From positions 1 to 26,630 of IMG/VR virus record IMGVR_UViG_3300005542_000022: a stretch of 26,630 nucleotides of DNA; one strand, written 5' to 3'. Below are positions 3,405 to 12,988 of the stretch, piece by piece. A program made the translations under genes and the position numbers. The notes below the pieces were generated by a model. It searched no databases and was not told the DNA's origin. It worked only from the letters and a program-made list of their open reading frames with translations. This stretch comes from a virus. Position 1 is the first letter of the stretch, and the number at the start of each line of letters is the position of its first letter.

Positions 3405-3829
3405 AATCTGTTTCTCCCGTTGTCCCCGGATTGGAACAGTTCGAACTTAAGATTGGTGGACCTGAGAACGGACAGCCTGAGTATCAGACTCTCACCGCTT
3501 TGCGCGGAACTGACGGCAGAGTGATGAGTCGATGGCACTTAACGCCTATCGAGCGTCAAGCAATTGCAGAGGGCGCCGATTTGATGTTGACGCTCAAGAC
3601 TGACGGACTCTATCCTCCCACTTTAATTCAGGTCGGCAGTTTCGGGCCTGGAGAATCAAAACAAATCAAGGATGACATGCGTCTCCAAGATGAACTAGAG
3701 TTGCGCCTGATCGCGAAAGAGCGAGACTCGGCAGCGCAAGTCTACAAAGAAACCCAAGCAGCATTTGAGCGCAAGGTTGCCGAAGTGTACGGCATCAAAC
3801 CGCAGGCACCAGGGAGTAGAATCCAATGA
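3401..3829 (+). CDS. Hypothetical protein upstream of the chimeric co-chaperonin
   Basis: The 142-residue protein starts at the ATG overlapping the previous stop (ATGA), with GAAGGGAG upstream; an ATG at 3368 in the same frame would extend it backwards into the previous gene and is less likely. The middle has LTPIERQAIAEGADLMLTLK followed by YPPTLIQVG, the shape of small phage proteins that bind another phage protein. The C-terminal third (about 95-130) is a charged helix, probably coiled coil. It overlaps the next gene by four bases. Function unknown. Confidence 0.75.
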   Translation: MKSVSPVVPGLEQFELKIGGPENGQPEYQTLTALRGTDGRVMSRWHLTPIERQAIAEGADLMLTLKTDGLYPPTLIQVGSFGPGESKQIKDDMRLQDELELRLIAKERDSAAQVYKETQAAFERKVAEVYGIKPQAPGSRIQ

Positions 3830-4776
3830 GTGATCCGGTTTTGGGAAACAAATCAGACGAACTAGGCCAGTACGAAGAGGGGCGAGACTTCGAGGGCATT
3901 CAAGCCGGACGTCTTGTGGAGCGCAGAGAGGATGTCAAAGTGCGCATATCAGAAGCGGAGACAGGTGATTTAGTCATAACTCCTGAATCCCGTTTCCGGT
4001 CTGACAGTCCAACCAAATTTACCGAGTCTCCACAAGAAATCACCAAGGCCCAACTCTTCGATGATCCAATGATGGAACGTGGCAACTCTCCGGAACTGCT
4101 TTTGCAGACCGCGATGACAGTGCTATCGAAGTACGCAGTTGCAATCTCGCGCAAGACCTATACGCGAGATAAGTTGATCTATGTCCAAGTCAATGACACG
4201 GAAACCATGTGTGCATTCGGAGACCGCGTTATCGTGATGCAGGACGAGATTGAATCCGAGTACTGTTGCCAGACTTGCGCCGGTAAGGGATATCCTGAAG
4301 AACAGGTATGCCCACGATGCGAAGGGAAGCAAGTAGAGCGCGTCGTTAATCCGCAGGACGTTGGGCAAGCGATGGATATTCCCTGCAGATCCTGCCGCGT
4401 CCTCGGGTACGATGCAACGGAATGGTGGAGTTCCGGTCGGGTGCCGTGCGCTAAGTGTCGTGGAGTTGGGTGGCGGGGTGGAATCATTATCCCTCACATT
4501 GCCCAGAGCAAGCCCATCTCGGGAATCATCGTGAGCGTAGGGCCTGAGTGCATCAATACCCGCATCGGTGACCGCGTAGTCCATTCGCGGTACGCAGGGA
4601 CAACATCACACTGCGCGTATGGAAGCTTCACTATGATGGCAGAGAATGAGATCATCGGCGGCGTGATGAAGTTGAAGCAGGTTTCGCAGGCCCAGATGTC
4701 CAGCGTTGCAACGGGCGGAAAGGTGGGGCGGAAAGGTGGCGCCCTCTCCAGACCGAGACGGCGCAAAAGGAAATAG
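3826..4776 (+). CDS. GroES-like co-chaperonin with an inserted DnaJ-type zinc domain
   Basis: The 316-residue protein (GroES is about 97) combines two chaperone parts. The first GroES strand is FGDRVIVMQDEIES (residues 131-144). The chain is then interrupted at the mobile loop by four Cys pairs, C148/C151, C162/C165, C187/C190 and C208/C211, as CQTCAGKG, CPRCEGK, CRSCRVLG and CAKCRGVG, which is the CxxCxGxG pattern of DnaJ. GroES resumes with GGIIIP (218-223), the GroEL-contact position of the loop, then GIIVSVGPE (233-241), IGDRVVHSRYAGTTS (247-261) and MMAENEIIGGVMK (270-282). An unrecognised 125-residue N-terminal part and a basic tail (RPRRRKRK) frame it. GroES caps GroEL; DnaJ zinc domains bind unfolded substrates. 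A capsid-folding role like T4 gp31 is inferred. The ribosome binding site is GGGAG. Confidence 0.85.
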   Translation: MSDPVLGNKSDELGQYEEGRDFEGIQAGRLVERREDVKVRISEAETGDLVITPESRFRSDSPTKFTESPQEITKAQLFDDPMMERGNSPELLLQTAMTVLSKYAVAISRKTYTRDKLIYVQVNDTETMCAFGDRVIVMQDEIESEYCCQTCAGKGYPEEQVCPRCEGKQVERVVNPQDVGQAMDIPCRSCRVLGYDATEWWSSGRVPCAKCRGVGWRGGIIIPHIAQSKPISGIIVSVGPECINTRIGDRVVHSRYAGTTSHCAYGSFTMMAENEIIGGVMKLKQVSQAQMSSVATGGKVGRKGGALSRPRRRKRK

Positions 4777-4778
4777 CA

Positions 4779-5159
4779 ATGCCGCAATACCACATCCACA
4801 TCCTTGAAAGCCGCATAGACTGGCCTGTTATCGTTACCTCTGTAGAGTGTCCAACGTGCCAGGCAGGCAAGGGAAAATTTTGTAAGCAGGTCGCCACACC
4901 CTTGGGCGGACTCGGGCAACAGTCACAGCGCAGTGACTTCCATGCAGCAAGAAAGTACGCGGCTGCTAAGTTCCTAGAAGAAAACCCGATGCCATCTACT
5001 CAGGTGTCGAGTACTTCGGTCATATCTCCCGATCCATTCAAGGAAATTCTCGAAGGGCGAGTCCCTGAGCATATCAAGGAAATGCGCACTCCTCCGGAAA
5101 AGGGAAAGCGTAAATCTAGGACAAGGAAAGTAGAAGAAACGACTCCAACGTCAGAGTAG
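4779..5159 (+). CDS. Phage zinc-finger protein with CxxC...G..C and HxxR motif
   Basis: The 126-residue protein has VECPTCQAGKGKFC (about residues 22-35) followed by SDFHAARKYAAAKF (about 51-64). The order CPxC, then G..C, then F/H-HAAR is typical of a small zinc-finger family common in phages of actinobacteria and others, thought to bind nucleic acid. The second half is disordered and ends in a basic KGKRKSRTRK segment. It begins two bases after the chimeric co-chaperonin, with AAAGGAA in front of the ATG, so the two are probably co-transcribed. Confidence 0.7.
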   Translation: MPQYHIHILESRIDWPVIVTSVECPTCQAGKGKFCKQVATPLGGLGQQSQRSDFHAARKYAAAKFLEENPMPSTQVSSTSVISPDPFKEILEGRVPEHIKEMRTPPEKGKRKSRTRKVEETTPTSE

Positions 5160-5686: not shown

Positions 5687-7600
5687 TTAGTAGCCTGCCT
5701 GTCCAATATTAACTGACACTGCTTTCCTCTTTCGATTCTCTTCATCAACAAATGATCTGGCTCCTGCTCGTGATCCGGCGCTCCAAGTTTGCGGAGCATA
5801 CCCAATCGTGGAAAGTAGGTCAGTGAATTTTCCATTCGGGTACTCGGTATATTCTTCAAGGAATAGGTTTACACCGTGGCCACGTCTCGACACCCAGAGC
5901 CATCCGTTTTCATAGATTGATTCCATCCCGATAATTCGATTGTGCATGCCGTTAGCACTCCGGTCTGTCTTCAGTGTTCGGACTCCGAACGAATGATCTC
6001 CATTTCTGTATAGTTCGGATACCTTGTCTTTGAAATAAAACTGCCATCCCTTCTGTCCGCCTGCATCGAATTCTCCGTAAAGGTAATGGACTTTCCACTT
6101 AAGACACAAACCGCGGTGGTCTCTCCGGGAACCCACTGCTGCATCAATCCATCTCTCATGCAGGGAGTCTTCGGCCCAACAGTCAAGCAGGTAAATTCGT
6201 CGGGGTTCCTTTGGCCGATTGTAGAATCCCAAAACGACAATTGCATTCCGGCTTCGCCCGTTGTCGCCTGAGTGATTTGGGTCTATGATCGCTACTCGGT
6301 CAAGGTCTGCGACTCGCACATCTTCAATCGTCTCGCCGTCTTCGACTTCGTGGCGGATTGCTTTCTTCATTCGCATCGGTGTTTGTGCGTGTGCGTCTTG
6401 TCCGTCTAGGTAATCGTCTAGTTGCCCAAGGGACATGCGCCGAATGTCACGCGGGAGCTGAGCGTAATTGGCGACTGTGAGCGGAGAAACTTTTTCATCT
6501 TCTCTGTCTTCCCAAACTGATTCAGAGAAGTGCCGAAGCCACTTACTATTAAAGCGAACAGCTTCAGGGTCTACAGGATTGTTACGGTACTGGCAGGAAT
6601 AATTGTAAGCACCCTCTTCTACTTTGATGAATGCGAGTTTCTTCATGGAATACTCTTCAGGGAATATCGGTTGTCCATGAACAGGATGCAGATCACAGCA
6701 TCCACCTTCAGCATCGTGGGTTATGAAATCCCATGCGTTGAGAGTGTTGTTGTCTCTTATGAGTTGGTTAACATCCTTCTTTGACCATCTGTTACCAATT
6801 ACTAATTGGTCTCCAAGTTTGTCGGGTTGGTCCGGGATAGCTTCAAACATGCCGGGCATCTTCTGATGCCATTCATAGGTGGCATTCATAACCACGTCGG
6901 ATTTGATAGCGTCTTCTCCGACCAAATCATCTTCAATGATTCGTTTATAGTGGCGCGATTGGAGAGCAGATCCAGCTCCAATTAAATCGTAGGTTCCTTC
7001 GCCGTGGTAGCCTTCCGAATCTCCACACCGCACGTGTGTCTTCGTGCTTTCGTTCCATCCTTTGCTAAAAGACTTAGGTATGATCTCCGGATAGACAAGC
7101 CTGAAAACTGAATTCTTCTGATACTGCTGGTCTATCTGGTCTCCAAGGTCTTTAACATTCTTGCCGATTTCCGAACATATCAGCGTTCTGGTGTGGGCAT
7201 TGTGAACATACTTCATCCATCGTATCCATTCGGCACCGTATCCGAGTTCTAGCATTGCTTGCTCATCTTCCTCAAGGAACGGTAAGGCCCACCACATAGA
7301 ACCTGAAATTGTGGCGCACGTGCTTTTGAAGTGCGAGCGAGGAATCTCCATTACCAAGCGCAACTCTTCGCGTTCCAGTTGCCGGCACATGTAGCCATGC
7401 AGATTTGGAGATAGGCGGGTATGGGCAAGGATGATCTTAGAGAAATAAAAAAGGCTTCCAAATCCGTTCAGCCGGATTGCTATTTTCTTGGTGTTCCAAG
7501 GCCACTCCTCATCAATTTCAATTTCCGTCCACTTTTCAGGCTGAGATTCTTCTATGAGTTCTACTTGAGGGCGAAGAGGATCAGAGAAGATAGATTGCAC
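5687..7600 (-). CDS. terL: Terminase large subunit (packaging ATPase/nuclease)
   Basis: The 637-residue protein has the terminase layout. The ATPase half shows a Walker A variant IPRSHFKST (86-94), Walker B RIIEDDLV (220-227) and the coupling-motif-like IGNRWSKKD (268-276). A QYRNNPVDPE segment (337-346) links to the nuclease half. There, acidic residues stand at AIIDPNH (D440), YGEFDAGG (E510, D512) and FTDLLST (D594), matching an RNase H-fold metal nuclease. The protein cuts concatemeric DNA and pumps it through the portal. Translation starts at GTG 7600, two bases after the preceding stop. Unusually, it lies downstream of the portal and on the strand opposite to the capsid genes. Confidence 0.92.
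   Translation of the reverse strand: MQSIFSDPLRPQVELIEESQPEKWTEIEIDEEWPWNTKKIAIRLNGFGSLFYFSKIILAHTRLSPNLHGYMCRQLEREELRLVMEIPRSHFKSTCATISGSMWWALPFLEEDEQAMLELGYGAEWIRWMKYVHNAHTRTLICSEIGKNVKDLGDQIDQQYQKNSVFRLVYPEIIPKSFSKGWNESTKTHVRCGDSEGYHGEGTYDLIGAGSALQSRHYKRIIEDDLVGEDAIKSDVVMNATYEWHQKMPGMFEAIPDQPDKLGDQLVIGNRWSKKDVNQLIRDNNTLNAWDFITHDAEGGCCDLHPVHGQPIFPEEYSMKKLAFIKVEEGAYNYSCQYRNNPVDPEAVRFNSKWLRHFSESVWEDREDEKVSPLTVANYAQLPRDIRRMSLGQLDDYLDGQDAHAQTPMRMKKAIRHEVEDGETIEDVRVADLDRVAIIDPNHSGDNGRSRNAIVVLGFYNRPKEPRRIYLLDCWAEDSLHERWIDAAVGSRRDHRGLCLKWKVHYLYGEFDAGGQKGWQFYFKDKVSELYRNGDHSFGVRTLKTDRSANGMHNRIIGMESIYENGWLWVSRRGHGVNLFLEEYTEYPNGKFTDLLSTIGYAPQTWSAGSRAGARSFVDEENRKRKAVSVNIGQAGY
7583..7600. repeat. Direct repeat copy at the start of terL
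   Basis: Eighteen bases at 7583-7600 (agagaagatagattgcac) match 7960-7977 (agggaagatagattgtac) at 16 positions. The copies bracket the 113-residue gene: this one codes for the terminase start (QSIF), the other for the same four residues near the portal end. Confidence 0.75.
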
Positions 7601-7602
7601 AC

Positions 7603-7944
7603 TCAGTAACCCGCTTCTCCGCTAGGGCGCGGCTGATTCGATGCTTTGTCCTTTGCGTCAATCTGACGTTTGATTACCTCTGGGAACTTCAGCAGATCGC
7701 GCATCATGAGAGTCTTTCCTCGAAGGAACGCGGCGTCATCTCCAGGCCGCATGAGTACGAGATCAACAGACATCTCCGAAATTTCCCTGAGATAAGGCGC
7801 TACTGATTCGAGCCATGCCGAATCATTGAACCACTGACGTAGGCCGTCAAGGTGTGGAGTAATGTGCTTGTTCCATGCGCGTGTTTGGATGTCTACAACT
7901 TGCTGCTCTAACGTTGGACTTCCGGGGGTTTTCTCGTCTGCCAT
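7603..7944 (-). CDS. Hypothetical protein between portal and terminase
   Basis: The 113-residue protein starts at the ATG directly after the portal stop, with AAGGAG inside the end of the portal gene, and ends two bases before the terminase GTG, so the three genes form one leftward operon. The middle looks helical (VAPYLREISEMSVDLVLM), followed by DDAAFLRGKTLMMRDLLKFPEVIK, reminiscent of small portal-associated phage proteins with an LRG...LLxxP element; I cannot name the family. A small-terminase role is possible from position only. It is flanked by an imperfect 18-base direct repeat. Confidence 0.7.
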   Translation of the reverse strand: MADEKTPGSPTLEQQVVDIQTRAWNKHITPHLDGLRQWFNDSAWLESVAPYLREISEMSVDLVLMRPGDDAAFLRGKTLMMRDLLKFPEVIKRQIDAKDKASNQPRPSGEAGY

Positions 7945-9945
7945 TTATCTGACTCCTTGAGGGAAGATAGATTGTACCGCTTGCGGACCTGGCTGCTGCG
8001 GATTTTGTTGTCCTCCTGGTTGGCCACCTTGCGGCTGTAGTTGCGATTTAACAACCTGCTCAAGCATTGCTGCTTTCTCTTCTGCTCCCAGAGGTTCAGG
8101 CAGGTAAGCGCTCACGTCTCCCTGAATGAATGAGCGGGTGATGCGCTCCATCAGGAGATTCGATGCCGCGATGAAGGAGTAAAGGAAATGCTGGACTTCA
8201 GGCGGGTTCATCGGGTTGGCTGCTGCCTGCAACAGTTGGGTGAGCTGCTGGCCATGCGCTCGAACGTTGTTCAGCAGAAGCATGAGGTTTTGCTTTTCAA
8301 CTTCGCTGTTGACTGTTCCAGTCGCTGCGCGGATCGGCAGAATGATCCGGCCCTTTTTGTAATTGTCCAGGGCCTTTTGCAGATACACTCCCTCTTTACC
8401 ACGTGCTGCTATTTCTTCCTGCCTGATGCCGAATCGGGAATCGTACAAAAGGATTGTCCGGCCAACACAGTAATGGGAATGGCGGAAACTCGTAATGTGC
8501 AGGTTGGCTCGTGTGTTCCCTTCAGACATTGTTTGAAAAGTTCCCATTGCTGAGTACTGATTCTTTTTATTGACTGTCCCTGCTCCTGCTCCGCTGGAAG
8601 ACGGCCCTACTCCTGCCCGGTCAGTTGCCAGGCGCAAACTCATTTCCTCATCTTTGATCGTCTCGTTCGCATTTCTCCCAAGCGGGATAACTTCAAGTTG
8701 GCCGGAATCTCCGGAGACCATCGCATTCGGGAAGATGGAGAAGTTTGAATCAAGCTGGAGACCTGGAGCTACGCGGAGCAGGTTCGTGTTTGAGAGTGTG
8801 CTTGCGTCTCCGCGTCTGTTGTGGATAGCTGTGATTTCCTCTTGGTAGTCCTTCAGCATTTCACAGTAGCCGAATCCATACGTGCGCTCTCCATCCGCTC
8901 CAAGGCATCCGGGAACGTAAGGGAGGGAATTATCGGGGAGCCAGTTGAAGACCCTTTTGATTGCTCTCTGTGTTCCATCGTGCCATTCAATGATGAGATG
9001 GAATTTCTTATTGGCGATCTGATAAGGGAGCCAGCATTGATAGATGTCCCACTCTTGAGAGTGTTCTGTTGCGGAGTCGGTCTTTGCGCCGGTCTCCTGC
9101 TCAAGCTTCTGCCTTTGCGCATCCGGGCCGTAACGGTCTGGATTCTTCAGTATCTCGTTGATGGCTGCATGGTCGTAGCTTTCATCCTGGAGCAGCGCAC
9201 GCAATTGGAACTCTTGCATGACGCAACGTTGCGCAAGAATCGGAGATCGTTCTAATTCAACAGTCGTTGCAGGCATGAGCCAATCTTCAAACAGAAGCGG
9301 AGTGCATACTGGGCCGTCATGCCTCACCCGTTCCGAAAAGGAAACATTTCCACGAGAGTCAATCCTTGTAGCTACCTGCTCCACATCCAAGGCGGGCAGG
9401 GTCTTGAGGACTCCATACCCGTACTTTATGAAAGTGCGCGCCCAGATTTCATACTTGGGGAGGAGATTGAGTTGTGAAGGTTCAAGGCCGCGGTAGGCTA
9501 ACCATTTCTGAACGGCGTTCCGTTGCTCTTCTGCTTTCTCTTTGCGCTGGAAATCTCCCTCAAGCCCAGCAATCCAAAATGGTTCCATCCCGAAAATTCC
9601 CATGATTAATTTGGCAGTGAGCTGCGCTTCATAGGAACCGACCAATTGGATAACTACATTCGAGGCATTCTGCCAGGGGAAGCTCTTTACTTTTTCGCGG
9701 GGAGTACCTGCCCAGATACGTCTCCACTGAGTTATTTTCTCTTCACGGATAGGCTTGAGACCGTTGATTAATCCCTTCACGCGGTCTTTGACATAGCCGT
9801 CTATTTCCTTGATTCGATCAGGGCTGAAGTACTTCGACAACGGAATTTCGGATGGTATGGGAATGGTAGTGTACCTCGACCACAATATACCGTAAACATT
9901 TTGTTCTTGACACAAGTAATTGATGTGATGGTAATATTCCTGCAT
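7945..9945 (-). CDS. Portal protein
   Basis: The 666-residue protein resembles large portal proteins of podovirus type. Residues about 377-396 (RRGDASTLSNTNLLRVAPG) look like the core where portals carry an N/R-rich helix and a conserved proline-glycine turn. Before it come FTIxYGYG-like segments (FIKYGYGVLK); the C-terminal 30 residues are Gln/Gly/Pro-rich and disordered. Twelve copies would form the DNA entry ring beside the terminase. The frame stays open upstream to 10347, but that part is antisense to the gene at 9995 and has a non-protein-like Ser/Cys/Ala composition. The ATG at 9945 lacks a ribosome binding site; TTG at 9915 or 9885 are alternatives. Confidence 0.78.
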   Translation of the reverse strand: MQEYYHHINYLCQEQNVYGILWSRYTTIPIPSEIPLSKYFSPDRIKEIDGYVKDRVKGLINGLKPIREEKITQWRRIWAGTPREKVKSFPWQNASNVVIQLVGSYEAQLTAKLIMGIFGMEPFWIAGLEGDFQRKEKAEEQRNAVQKWLAYRGLEPSQLNLLPKYEIWARTFIKYGYGVLKTLPALDVEQVATRIDSRGNVSFSERVRHDGPVCTPLLFEDWLMPATTVELERSPILAQRCVMQEFQLRALLQDESYDHAAINEILKNPDRYGPDAQRQKLEQETGAKTDSATEHSQEWDIYQCWLPYQIANKKFHLIIEWHDGTQRAIKRVFNWLPDNSLPYVPGCLGADGERTYGFGYCEMLKDYQEEITAIHNRRGDASTLSNTNLLRVAPGLQLDSNFSIFPNAMVSGDSGQLEVIPLGRNANETIKDEEMSLRLATDRAGVGPSSSGAGAGTVNKKNQYSAMGTFQTMSEGNTRANLHITSFRHSHYCVGRTILLYDSRFGIRQEEIAARGKEGVYLQKALDNYKKGRIILPIRAATGTVNSEVEKQNLMLLLNNVRAHGQQLTQLLQAAANPMNPPEVQHFLYSFIAASNLLMERITRSFIQGDVSAYLPEPLGAEEKAAMLEQVVKSQLQPQGGQPGGQQNPQQPGPQAVQSIFPQGVR
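7960..7977. repeat. Direct repeat copy near the end of the portal gene
   Basis: This is the second copy of the 18-base repeat also found at 7583-7600, 377 bases away, with 16 of 18 bases identical and 12 in a row (gaagatagattg). Both copies are read in the same frame as VQSIF. See the finding on the portal-terminase junction. Confidence 0.75.
9907..9937 (+). promoter_or_regulatory. Candidate promoter of the rightward virion operon
   Basis: TTGACA at 9907-9912 is followed, after 19 bases, by TAATAT at 9932-9937, directly preceded by TGG (an extended -10, TGn). It lies inside the first codons of the opposing portal gene and would start transcription near 9944, about 50 bases before the ATG at 9995. 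No other promoter-like sequence precedes the following 16 kb of same-strand genes. Confidence 0.5.
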
Positions 9946-9994
9946 GCCATGGCCAGGAACAACAAAAACACCAAGCGCTGAAGAGGTAATCGGT

Positions 9995-10666
9995 ATGAAA
10001 GCCGAAGACCTGAAGGCGAAACTAGATGGAGCTGCTACAAAAGAGGATATTGCCGCAATAGAAACCAAAGTGACATCCTCTCTTGCGGAACTCCAGAAGA
10101 CGCTAGAGGCACTGAAGCCACAGACTCCGGTAGTCACAGAGGGAGAGCCGGACGGCGGCGAACTGCCCGATCCAACTGTCCAGATTATTTCTGACCCGAC
10201 CAAGTTCGTCGGTAAGCAACTTGAGCCTCTGCAAAAAGCGCAGATGGAGACGCAAGCGCAACTCGGGGAGATGAGAGCAAGACAGAATCCGCAGCTTGCC
10301 GGTGCATTTTCCCAGTACGGAACTGAACTGATGGAGAGCGCCAACAAGTTGCCTCTTGCGATGCGTGCTCAGCCGAATTTCTGGGACTGGCACATACGCA
10401 CGATCTTGGGAGACAAGATGGTCAAGGGTGAAATCCGGGAAGGAAAATTTCCTTCGCTCATCGGCTCTTCATCTGTGGTTCCGAATGTTACCGGGAGCAA
10501 AGAGGACAAGAATCACGGTTTCAGCGCTTCCCAGATCGAATGGTTCAACGAACACAAAATTCCCATTGAGTCTGCCAGGGCAATCACGAACATGTACGAC
10601 GATGGCGAACCGATCAATCAATCCGGATACAAAACTTACAAGCAGGCGGTAGGTGCCAATGCCTAA
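9995..10666 (+). CDS. Head-associated protein, possibly scaffold-like
   Basis: The 223-residue protein starts at ATG 9995 after GAAGAGGT; an in-frame ATG at 9944 would add 17 residues. Residues 1-40 (KAEDLKAKLDGAATKEDIAA onward) form a charged coiled-coil-like helix, followed by a Pro/Gly/Glu-rich linker, another helix (about 76-110) and a folded C-terminal part containing WFNEHKIPIESARAITNMYDDG (in two parts, about 185-206). It is the first gene of the virion operon, in front of the capsid genes, which is where scaffolds or internal head proteins occur; no sequence signature confirms this. Confidence 0.75.
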   Translation: MKAEDLKAKLDGAATKEDIAAIETKVTSSLAELQKTLEALKPQTPVVTEGEPDGGELPDPTVQIISDPTKFVGKQLEPLQKAQMETQAQLGEMRARQNPQLAGAFSQYGTELMESANKLPLAMRAQPNFWDWHIRTILGDKMVKGEIREGKFPSLIGSSSVVPNVTGSKEDKNHGFSASQIEWFNEHKIPIESARAITNMYDDGEPINQSGYKTYKQAVGANA

Positions 10667-12025: not shown

Positions 12026-12988
12026 ATGGGAGTAATGGTCAGAAATCAATTCTTCCAGGCAATGACAGCCGCTTGGACGCATAACCTCATTGAGTTTCTG
12101 GACTTCCGCCAAAAGTCTCTCCAGTACCCAATGTGGATGAATGTCCACACGTCCAAACAGGCGTATGAGACTGCCGTACACTATGCCGGATTCGGACCCG
12201 CGCAGCCAAAGAACGAAGGTGAAGCGGTTGTGTACGACTCCCTGATCCAAGGTGGAACGCGGCGATATGTGCATCAGACCTACGGACTGGGCATGCGTTC
12301 TTCGTATGAGTTCATGCAGGACGATCAAACCGGAATGGTCGAACAGTCTCCGAAGGGCCTGATTCAGTCTCACCACTTTGCCCAAGAAATGACCGGGGCA
12401 AACGTTTTCAGTTTGGGATTCAGCTCAACCGGCACTTTGACGGATGACGGCGTGTCGCTGTACAACAATCAGCATCCCCTGTTGGGCGGGGCGGCGGCTA
12501 CCAACGTAGCGCCTGGAGTGGGAACTTTCTCGACTGCATCCGGCACTTATCCCAACCGGCCGCAGACTGATGCTGACTTGAGTTTCACTGCTCTGCAATA
12601 CGGCAGCATGGTTTTCCAGCGCATGCCGAACGCACGAGGATTGCTCATTGCCAGCAGGCCGAGCTACTTGGATGCCCCTCCCGAATTGGAATTTATCTGT
12701 GATGAGCTTCTCGCTTCCAGTGGCCAGCCTTACACGAGTGACAATACCATCAACTCGCTCGTGAGCATGGGACTGAAGAAGCGAATTCACAGTTACTTCC
12801 CTTCCCCGTCAGCTTGGGGATTGACTGCGGAGAAGGATCAACATCGGATCATGTTCTACGAGCGTGAGCCGATCTACGTTGACCGGGATCGCGACTTCGA
12901 CCAGCAGGCGTTCAAGTGCCTGGCAATATCACGGTACAGCGCGGGCGCCGACACGTGGATCAATCTCTTCGGTTCGCTTGGACCTTAG
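12026..12988 (+). CDS. Major capsid protein (HK97-fold type)
   Basis: The 320-residue protein is the capsid candidate. The start ATG follows AGGAG by eight bases. The N-terminal half has an aromatic arm and a long helix region (QFFQAMTAAWTHNLIEFL). A central loop with DGVSLYNNQHPLLGG (residues 141-155) recalls the FNxxHPL element of Mu gpT-like HK97-fold capsids. The C-terminal half contains the beta-rich core (LLIASRPSY, HRIMFYEREPIYV) and ends with NLFGSLGP. Hundreds of copies would form the shell around the packaged DNA. Whether the N-terminus is cleaved is not visible. Its gene lies between the decoration-like protein and a small uncharacterised gene. Confidence 0.85.
   Translation: MGVMVRNQFFQAMTAAWTHNLIEFLDFRQKSLQYPMWMNVHTSKQAYETAVHYAGFGPAQPKNEGEAVVYDSLIQGGTRRYVHQTYGLGMRSSYEFMQDDQTGMVEQSPKGLIQSHHFAQEMTGANVFSLGFSSTGTLTDDGVSLYNNQHPLLGGAAATNVAPGVGTFSTASGTYPNRPQTDADLSFTALQYGSMVFQRMPNARGLLIASRPSYLDAPPELEFICDELLASSGQPYTSDNTINSLVSMGLKKRIHSYFPSPSAWGLTAEKDQHRIMFYEREPIYVDRDRDFDQQAFKCLAISRYSAGADTWINLFGSLGP

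Follow-up and report, generated by a model that had tools for sequence, protein, structure and literature searches.

An open reading frame on the plus strand of a 26.6 kb virus record from IMG/VR (positions 3826-4776) encodes a 316 aa protein, P0001, in which a GroES (Cpn10) fold is split by a ~72-residue segment with four DnaJ-type CxxC knuckles. The whole 26,630 nt stretch that was analysed is referred to as the window. We interpret P0001, with a probability of roughly 0.55, as a phage co-chaperonin of the GroES/gp31 type that caps the host GroEL for the folding of virion proteins and has zinc arms that hold clients. An earlier reading made from the DNA letters alone (the sequence-only reading) had reported this frame, and its position, strand and length were exactly as claimed.

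GroES halves flank an insert inside the mobile loop

The Pfam Cpn10 profile matched residues 217-278 of P0001 with 37.2 bits (E 3.1e-9), over the curated cut-off of 21.1, and also matched all of the family members that were scanned (14/14). The matched part belongs to the remaining GroES barrel, residues 218-282 (4477..4671, +), for which strands were predicted at 231-238, 250-253, 258-263 and 266-272. Upstream of the insert, residues 119-144 (4180..4257, +) comprise the first GroES strand and the start of the mobile loop. Here FGDRVIVMQDEIES of P0001 aligned with DRVIVKRKEVETK of E. coli GroES. In a profile search, this first strand was located correctly ahead of a Cpn20 match, and strands were predicted at 127-129 and 134-139 in the AF2 model. 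The insert enters at approximately K20/S21 of E. coli GroES, a position in the N-terminal arm of the mobile loop. Within a few residues of its end comes the hydrophobic tripeptide I220-I221-I222 (4483..4491, +), the counterpart of the I25-V26-L27 GroEL contact of E. coli GroES. Every aligned member has three aliphatic residues and then a proline at this site. The sequence-only reading had assigned GroES to both of the flanking halves, which agrees with the GroES profiles and the GroES/gp31 fold found there. Its placement of the insertion at the mobile loop also holds, with the correction that the insert is within the loop itself, just before I220-I221-I222.

A feature overlooked in that reading is the deletion of the roof β-hairpin, which is missing in all of the aligned members. 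At the corresponding site (GPECINTRIG; 4540..4569, +), all of these proteins, as well as the GroES of Caudoviricetes sp. vir526, are ~10 residues shorter than GroES. T4 gp31 also has no roof hairpin, which leads to a wider opening (PMC6318259), and the hairpin is therefore not defining for phage co-chaperonins.

The two ends of P0001 lie outside the GroES fold. The N-terminal region (residues 1-118; 3826..4179, +) is of unknown function, as the sequence-only reading had already noted, and has a motif, LGNxAxExG..GADFxGINxS, that is conserved only in the long form of the family described below. The basic C-terminal tail of 34 residues (residues 283-316; 4672..4773, +), which ends in PRRRKRK, is peculiar to P0001; the long-form relatives terminate around the position of residue 282-290.

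The insert resembles the zinc domains of DnaJ and BSD2

The inserted domain spans residues 146-217 (4261..4476, +), and its knuckles are C148-x2-C151 (4267..4278, +), C162-x2-C165 (4309..4320, +), C187-x2-C190 (4384..4395, +) and C208-x2-C211 (4447..4458, +). All eight of the cysteines are invariant, both in the 14 aligned members and in an alignment of 15 insert sequences, in line with the four DnaJ-type CxxC knuckles recognized in the sequence-only reading. Most long forms have a complete GxG after the cysteines in knuckles 1 and 4, and in knuckles 2 and 3 it is partial. The match of the Pfam DnaJ_CXXCXGXG profile to residues 148-214 (E 1.4e-5, 25.7 bits) was under the curated cut-off of 32.7, with scores of 20-23 bits for other members. 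A profile of the insert nevertheless matched DnaJ chains in the PDB, namely 2ctt (E 6.5e-5), 1nlt, 6jzb and 1exk. No Pfam match to the J domain or to the C-terminal client-binding domains of DnaJ was detected in P0001.

Searching the insert alone, as the sequence-only reading had proposed, and folding it alone likewise revealed a resemblance to DnaJ zinc domains. The isolated model had a pLDDT of 74.7, and the top Foldseek matches were DnaJ 2ctt (E 2e-3), DnaJA2 and 6jzb, followed by BSD2. With VIA, the scores for the DnaJ and BSD2 families were modest (Z 4.5-3.4), including Z 4.5 and rmsd 4.6 over 65 residues for DnaJA2 and Z 3.9 and rmsd 4.2 over 63 residues for E. coli DnaJ 1exk. No family was ranked above the DnaJ zinc domains in the fold search with the insert. 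The two zinc ions that each insert would bind, with knuckles 1+4 and 2+3 as the putative sites, are inferred from this likeness.

The full-length AF2 model of P0001, built on 18 members, had a mean pLDDT of 63.5 and a pTM of 0.39. The zinc domain (pLDDT ~66-95) and the GroES strands (mostly 70-80) scored higher than the loop at 222-228, where values were <50, as they also were for most residues of the N-terminal region. Low confidence at 222-228, just after the tripeptide, is as expected for a mobile loop. Residues 119-282 were matched to GroES 1p3h (Z 10.5, rmsd 5.0, 84 residues), to T4 gp31 1g31 (Z 9.2, rmsd 5.5, 93 residues) and to gp31 on GroEL, 2cgt (Z 9.0, rmsd 2.2, 69 residues). The structural alignments with GroES and gp31 bridged the insert, spanning 117-282 with starts at 117-128 and Z ~8-10.5.

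The split architecture recurs in a diverse phage family

A degenerate DNA pattern, C..C.G.G...G[IV]..P, covering the junction from knuckle 4 to the GroES loop, was scanned over 2.9 million IMG/VR viral contigs. With the observed spacing, the pattern was present in 20 contigs, and 20/20 were true members, some of them with only a short stored stretch in which just the end of the insert and GroES are visible. Among the control hits, 0/2 were true for a spacing one residue shorter and 1/6 for a spacing one residue longer, the single case being a divergent member, L079. Alignment-based searches added members beyond the pattern, for a total of ~25 contigs and ~20 distinct proteins, and the aligned members are 24-40% identical to P0001. 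The architecture is not a chance arrangement, and the insertion, which the sequence-only reading had suggested looking for in related phages, is present in many of them. By tblastn, P0001 had no match in 50,697 phage records, and its domain part gave weak partial matches only. Exact-peptide searches of IMG/VR with P0001 and with the terminase detected only an identical contig, and the plasmid search gave, among the matches listed, ordinary GroES only. One member of the family was matched by phrog_931, 'head morphogenesis'.

Two forms can be distinguished. The long form, 266-316 aa, has the conserved N-terminal region of ~120 residues, while the short form, ~195-218 aa (L007, L009, L069, L072 and the more divergent L079), is without it, indicating that this region is outside the core design. 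In the short form, knuckles 3 and 4 are closer together, as in DnaJ. Since synonymous sites were near saturation and dN/dS was mostly not computable, selection was assessed by pN/pS. Purifying selection acts on every region (pN/pS ~0.1-0.45 in long-form pairs) and is strongest for the long-form GroES part (0.10-0.18). We also noted that three members (L015, L017 and L023) are near-identical over most of their length and differ in the first ~20 residues, suggesting that the 5´ end of the gene has recombined.

The co-chaperonin gene precedes the head module

The co-chaperonin gene is just upstream of a terminase-portal-capsid module, and its place is constant in the relatives. Directly after it, we detected a gene for a small putative zinc-finger protein (4779..5159, +; Phage_zn_bind_8, Pfam E 3.4e-6), which is syntenic in most long-form relatives and is a possible partner. 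The module itself comprises the terminase large subunit (5687..7600, -; phrog_38, E 2.7e-42), the portal protein (7945..10347, -; SU10_portal, E 5.3e-10) and the major capsid protein, the proposed client (12026..12988, +; phrog_371, E 2.8e-4), which is 70-76% identical among the long-form relatives. The real start of the portal gene is probably inside the ORF at 7945..10347; the matches to relatives span ~606/800 aa. For long forms with enough flanking sequence, the order is co-chaperonin, the zinc-finger protein where found, terminase, portal, other head genes and capsid, and for short forms co-chaperonin, terminase, portal and, where covered, capsid.

Two local features of these modules were also observed. 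In the window, terminase, a 113-aa gene and portal are on the minus strand (5687-10347), whereas in the long-form relatives examined they share the strand of the co-chaperonin gene and run terminase, portal, 113-aa gene. Because the left-to-right order differs too, the block is not a simple inversion. Its left junction is backed by an identical second contig, and a search of the edges of this terminase/portal block for inverted repeats revealed nothing convincing. In one relative, G003 (L062, 14343-14828), an ORF for a LAGLIDADG-like homing endonuclease, with GFFDGEG recognized by eye, is directly before the capsid gene.

In more distant phages with related capsid or portal proteins (Alcaligenes phage QDWS535, MW202785, vir526), the head module encodes an ordinary GroES. 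For vir526 (BK063670), this gene (L059, 1027-1383) is likewise just before terminase and portal, and its product is missing the roof hairpin; it differs from the family in having a plain mobile loop, and the portal and capsid proteins are just ~23% identical. Given these ordinary GroES genes, a co-chaperonin of the head module seems to have been elaborated with the insert.

A lid in this family would have to use host GroEL

Cpn60 was detected in none of the 16 records of the family (0/16). Two relatives appear to be complete, namely G003, which has 48.4 kb and end repeats of 97 bases, and G008, which has 49.4 kb and end repeats of 127 bases. Each encodes just one Cpn10, and thus the lid, if it is a lid, must use the GroEL of the host. 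The proposal in the sequence-only reading that the protein caps host GroEL is supported by these two genomes and by the retained tripeptide, with GroEL binding itself being inferred.

As for the identity of the host, VanY-type endolysins in G003, where the gene is beside a lipoprotein-like gene, and in G011 suggest a bacterial host, but this hint is weak and not firm since VanY is also found in Methanosarcina. The record of vir526 lists Methanomicrobiales as the host. A 3.3 kb contig with a family co-chaperonin and terminase (L039) was binned with a Methanoregulaceae MAG, possibly wrongly; a full-length member was present in only 1/199 genomes of the order of this MAG, and we do not take an archaeal host as shown.

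Proposed function and alternative explanations

We propose that seven subunits would form a dome on host GroEL and grip it via the mobile-loop tripeptide, with both the heptamer and the capping being inferred. Without the roof hairpin, the dome would have a more open top, as for gp31. Each subunit would carry a DnaJ/BSD2-type two-zinc arm, spliced into the mobile loop on its N-terminal side, such that up to seven arms could be positioned at the rim between GroEL and lid. The job of the assembly would be to replace or supplement host GroES in the folding of the terminase, portal and capsid proteins encoded downstream, while the arms might keep hold of unfolded or just-released client. There is good inferential support for the cap role. 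The client-holding role of the arm is less supported and untested; like zinc binding and the clients themselves, it is inferred, and no experiment has been carried out. It relies on two precedents: ZnJ2, a stand-alone DnaJ-type zinc domain, stops the aggregation of denatured proteins (PMC5818400), and BSD2 binds and stabilises RbcL once it is released from the chaperonin (PMC5859369). Given that the capsid protein has only 320 aa, the enlargement of the cage for one large client that has been argued for T4 gp23 does not readily explain the modified lid. We also consider that GroEL could be bound less strongly with a 72-residue insert next to the tripeptide.

The arm of a lid that does cap GroEL might hold no client and instead act as a clamp on a neighbouring subunit or on the GroEL apical domain, tuning the lifetime of the lid or its preference over host GroES. 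We regard this combination as possible and somewhat doubtful, and as an explanation for the arm it is nearly as plausible as client holding. The arm directly adjoins the GroEL-contacting tripeptide, and apart from its fixed cysteines it is variable (long-form pN/pS up to 0.45), as might be the case for a structural stalk. However, the nearest folds are the client-handling domains of DnaJ and BSD2, and far less sequence would suffice to tune a lid, the gp31 loop having merely 22 residues compared to 16 (PMC6318259). A further departure from the co-chaperonin reading, which we think improbable, is that the GroES barrel has been reused and does not cap GroEL at all, serving, for instance, as a packaging factor or scaffold with a zinc arm that binds terminase, portal or DNA. 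The adjoining genes for the small putative zinc-finger protein and terminase, the basic tail of P0001 and the large, unexplained N-terminal region would fit such a factor, but strict retention of the GroEL-binding tripeptide would not be expected, and in the relative vir526 the corresponding position is taken by an ordinary GroES.

Two explanations concern the origin of the gene. GroES-like domains also occur in zinc alcohol dehydrogenases, which likewise have a zinc lobe, and an ADH_N match to residues 231-281 (E 6.9e-4) and the presence of such enzymes further down the fold list (Z ~7) would be consistent with descent from this source. The match is weak, with 20.3 bits for ADH_N compared to 37.2 for Cpn10, the top folds are GroES and gp31, no nucleotide-binding domain was found in P0001 and the zinc lobe of the dehydrogenases is at a different place in the fold. 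Very little likelihood remains for this origin, which the profile scores refute in practice. Even less remains for an assembly artefact that fused two genes; while metagenome assemblies can produce fusions, the same joint recurs in ~25 contigs from many metagenomes, with 25-40% protein identity to P0001, which refutes it.

Relation to known chaperones and implications

T4 gp31, one of the closest known systems, has a GroES barrel with a mobile loop and no roof hairpin, and is a phage gene product using host GroEL. It differs in having a mobile loop of 22 residues that contains no zinc domain (PMC6318259), while the family has the ~72-residue insert with two putative zinc sites and, in the long form, the additional N-terminal region of 120 aa. 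Bacterial GroES/Cpn10 (PF00166) shares the profile and fold with the family but is ~95 aa, with the roof hairpin present and no insert. The DnaJ cysteine-rich domain (PF00684) has four CxxC(xGxG) knuckles in the same order and a similar fold; in contrast to DnaJ, the family has no J domain or client-binding β domains, and some knuckles are without GxG or are spaced differently. Chloroplast BSD2/ZnJ2, to which the insert fold was also matched, has a DnaJ-type zinc domain without a J domain and acts beside a chaperonin (PMC5818400, PMC5859369), but is a separate protein, not within GroES, and has the Rubisco large subunit as the client. Helicobacter pylori GroES (HspA), the closest metal-binding GroES known, also has an extra Cys/His-rich part, though this is a short C-terminal nickel-binding extension, unlike the zinc domain inserted in the mobile loop here (PMC5116745). 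None of the open-access papers searched described a GroES carrying a DnaJ-type insert, consistent with the sequence-only reading, which knew of no described protein of this architecture; most subscription literature and preprints were outside the scope of this search.

Phage co-chaperonins of the gp31 type showed how the lid of GroEL decides which clients fold. In the family reported here, a second chaperone module is placed exactly at the contact between lid and barrel, and it has been kept across diverse phages. We tentatively suggest a one-piece chaperone relay, in which a roofless lid with up to seven zinc arms would combine capture or post-release holding with encapsulation, redirecting host GroEL to virion proteins. 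The family allows a direct test of whether a lid can recruit or retain chosen clients and is a natural example for designed lids that fold difficult proteins. It also indicates that plain 'GroES' labels on phage genes can mask new architectures, in this case one that may bring two chaperone steps together in one viral protein.
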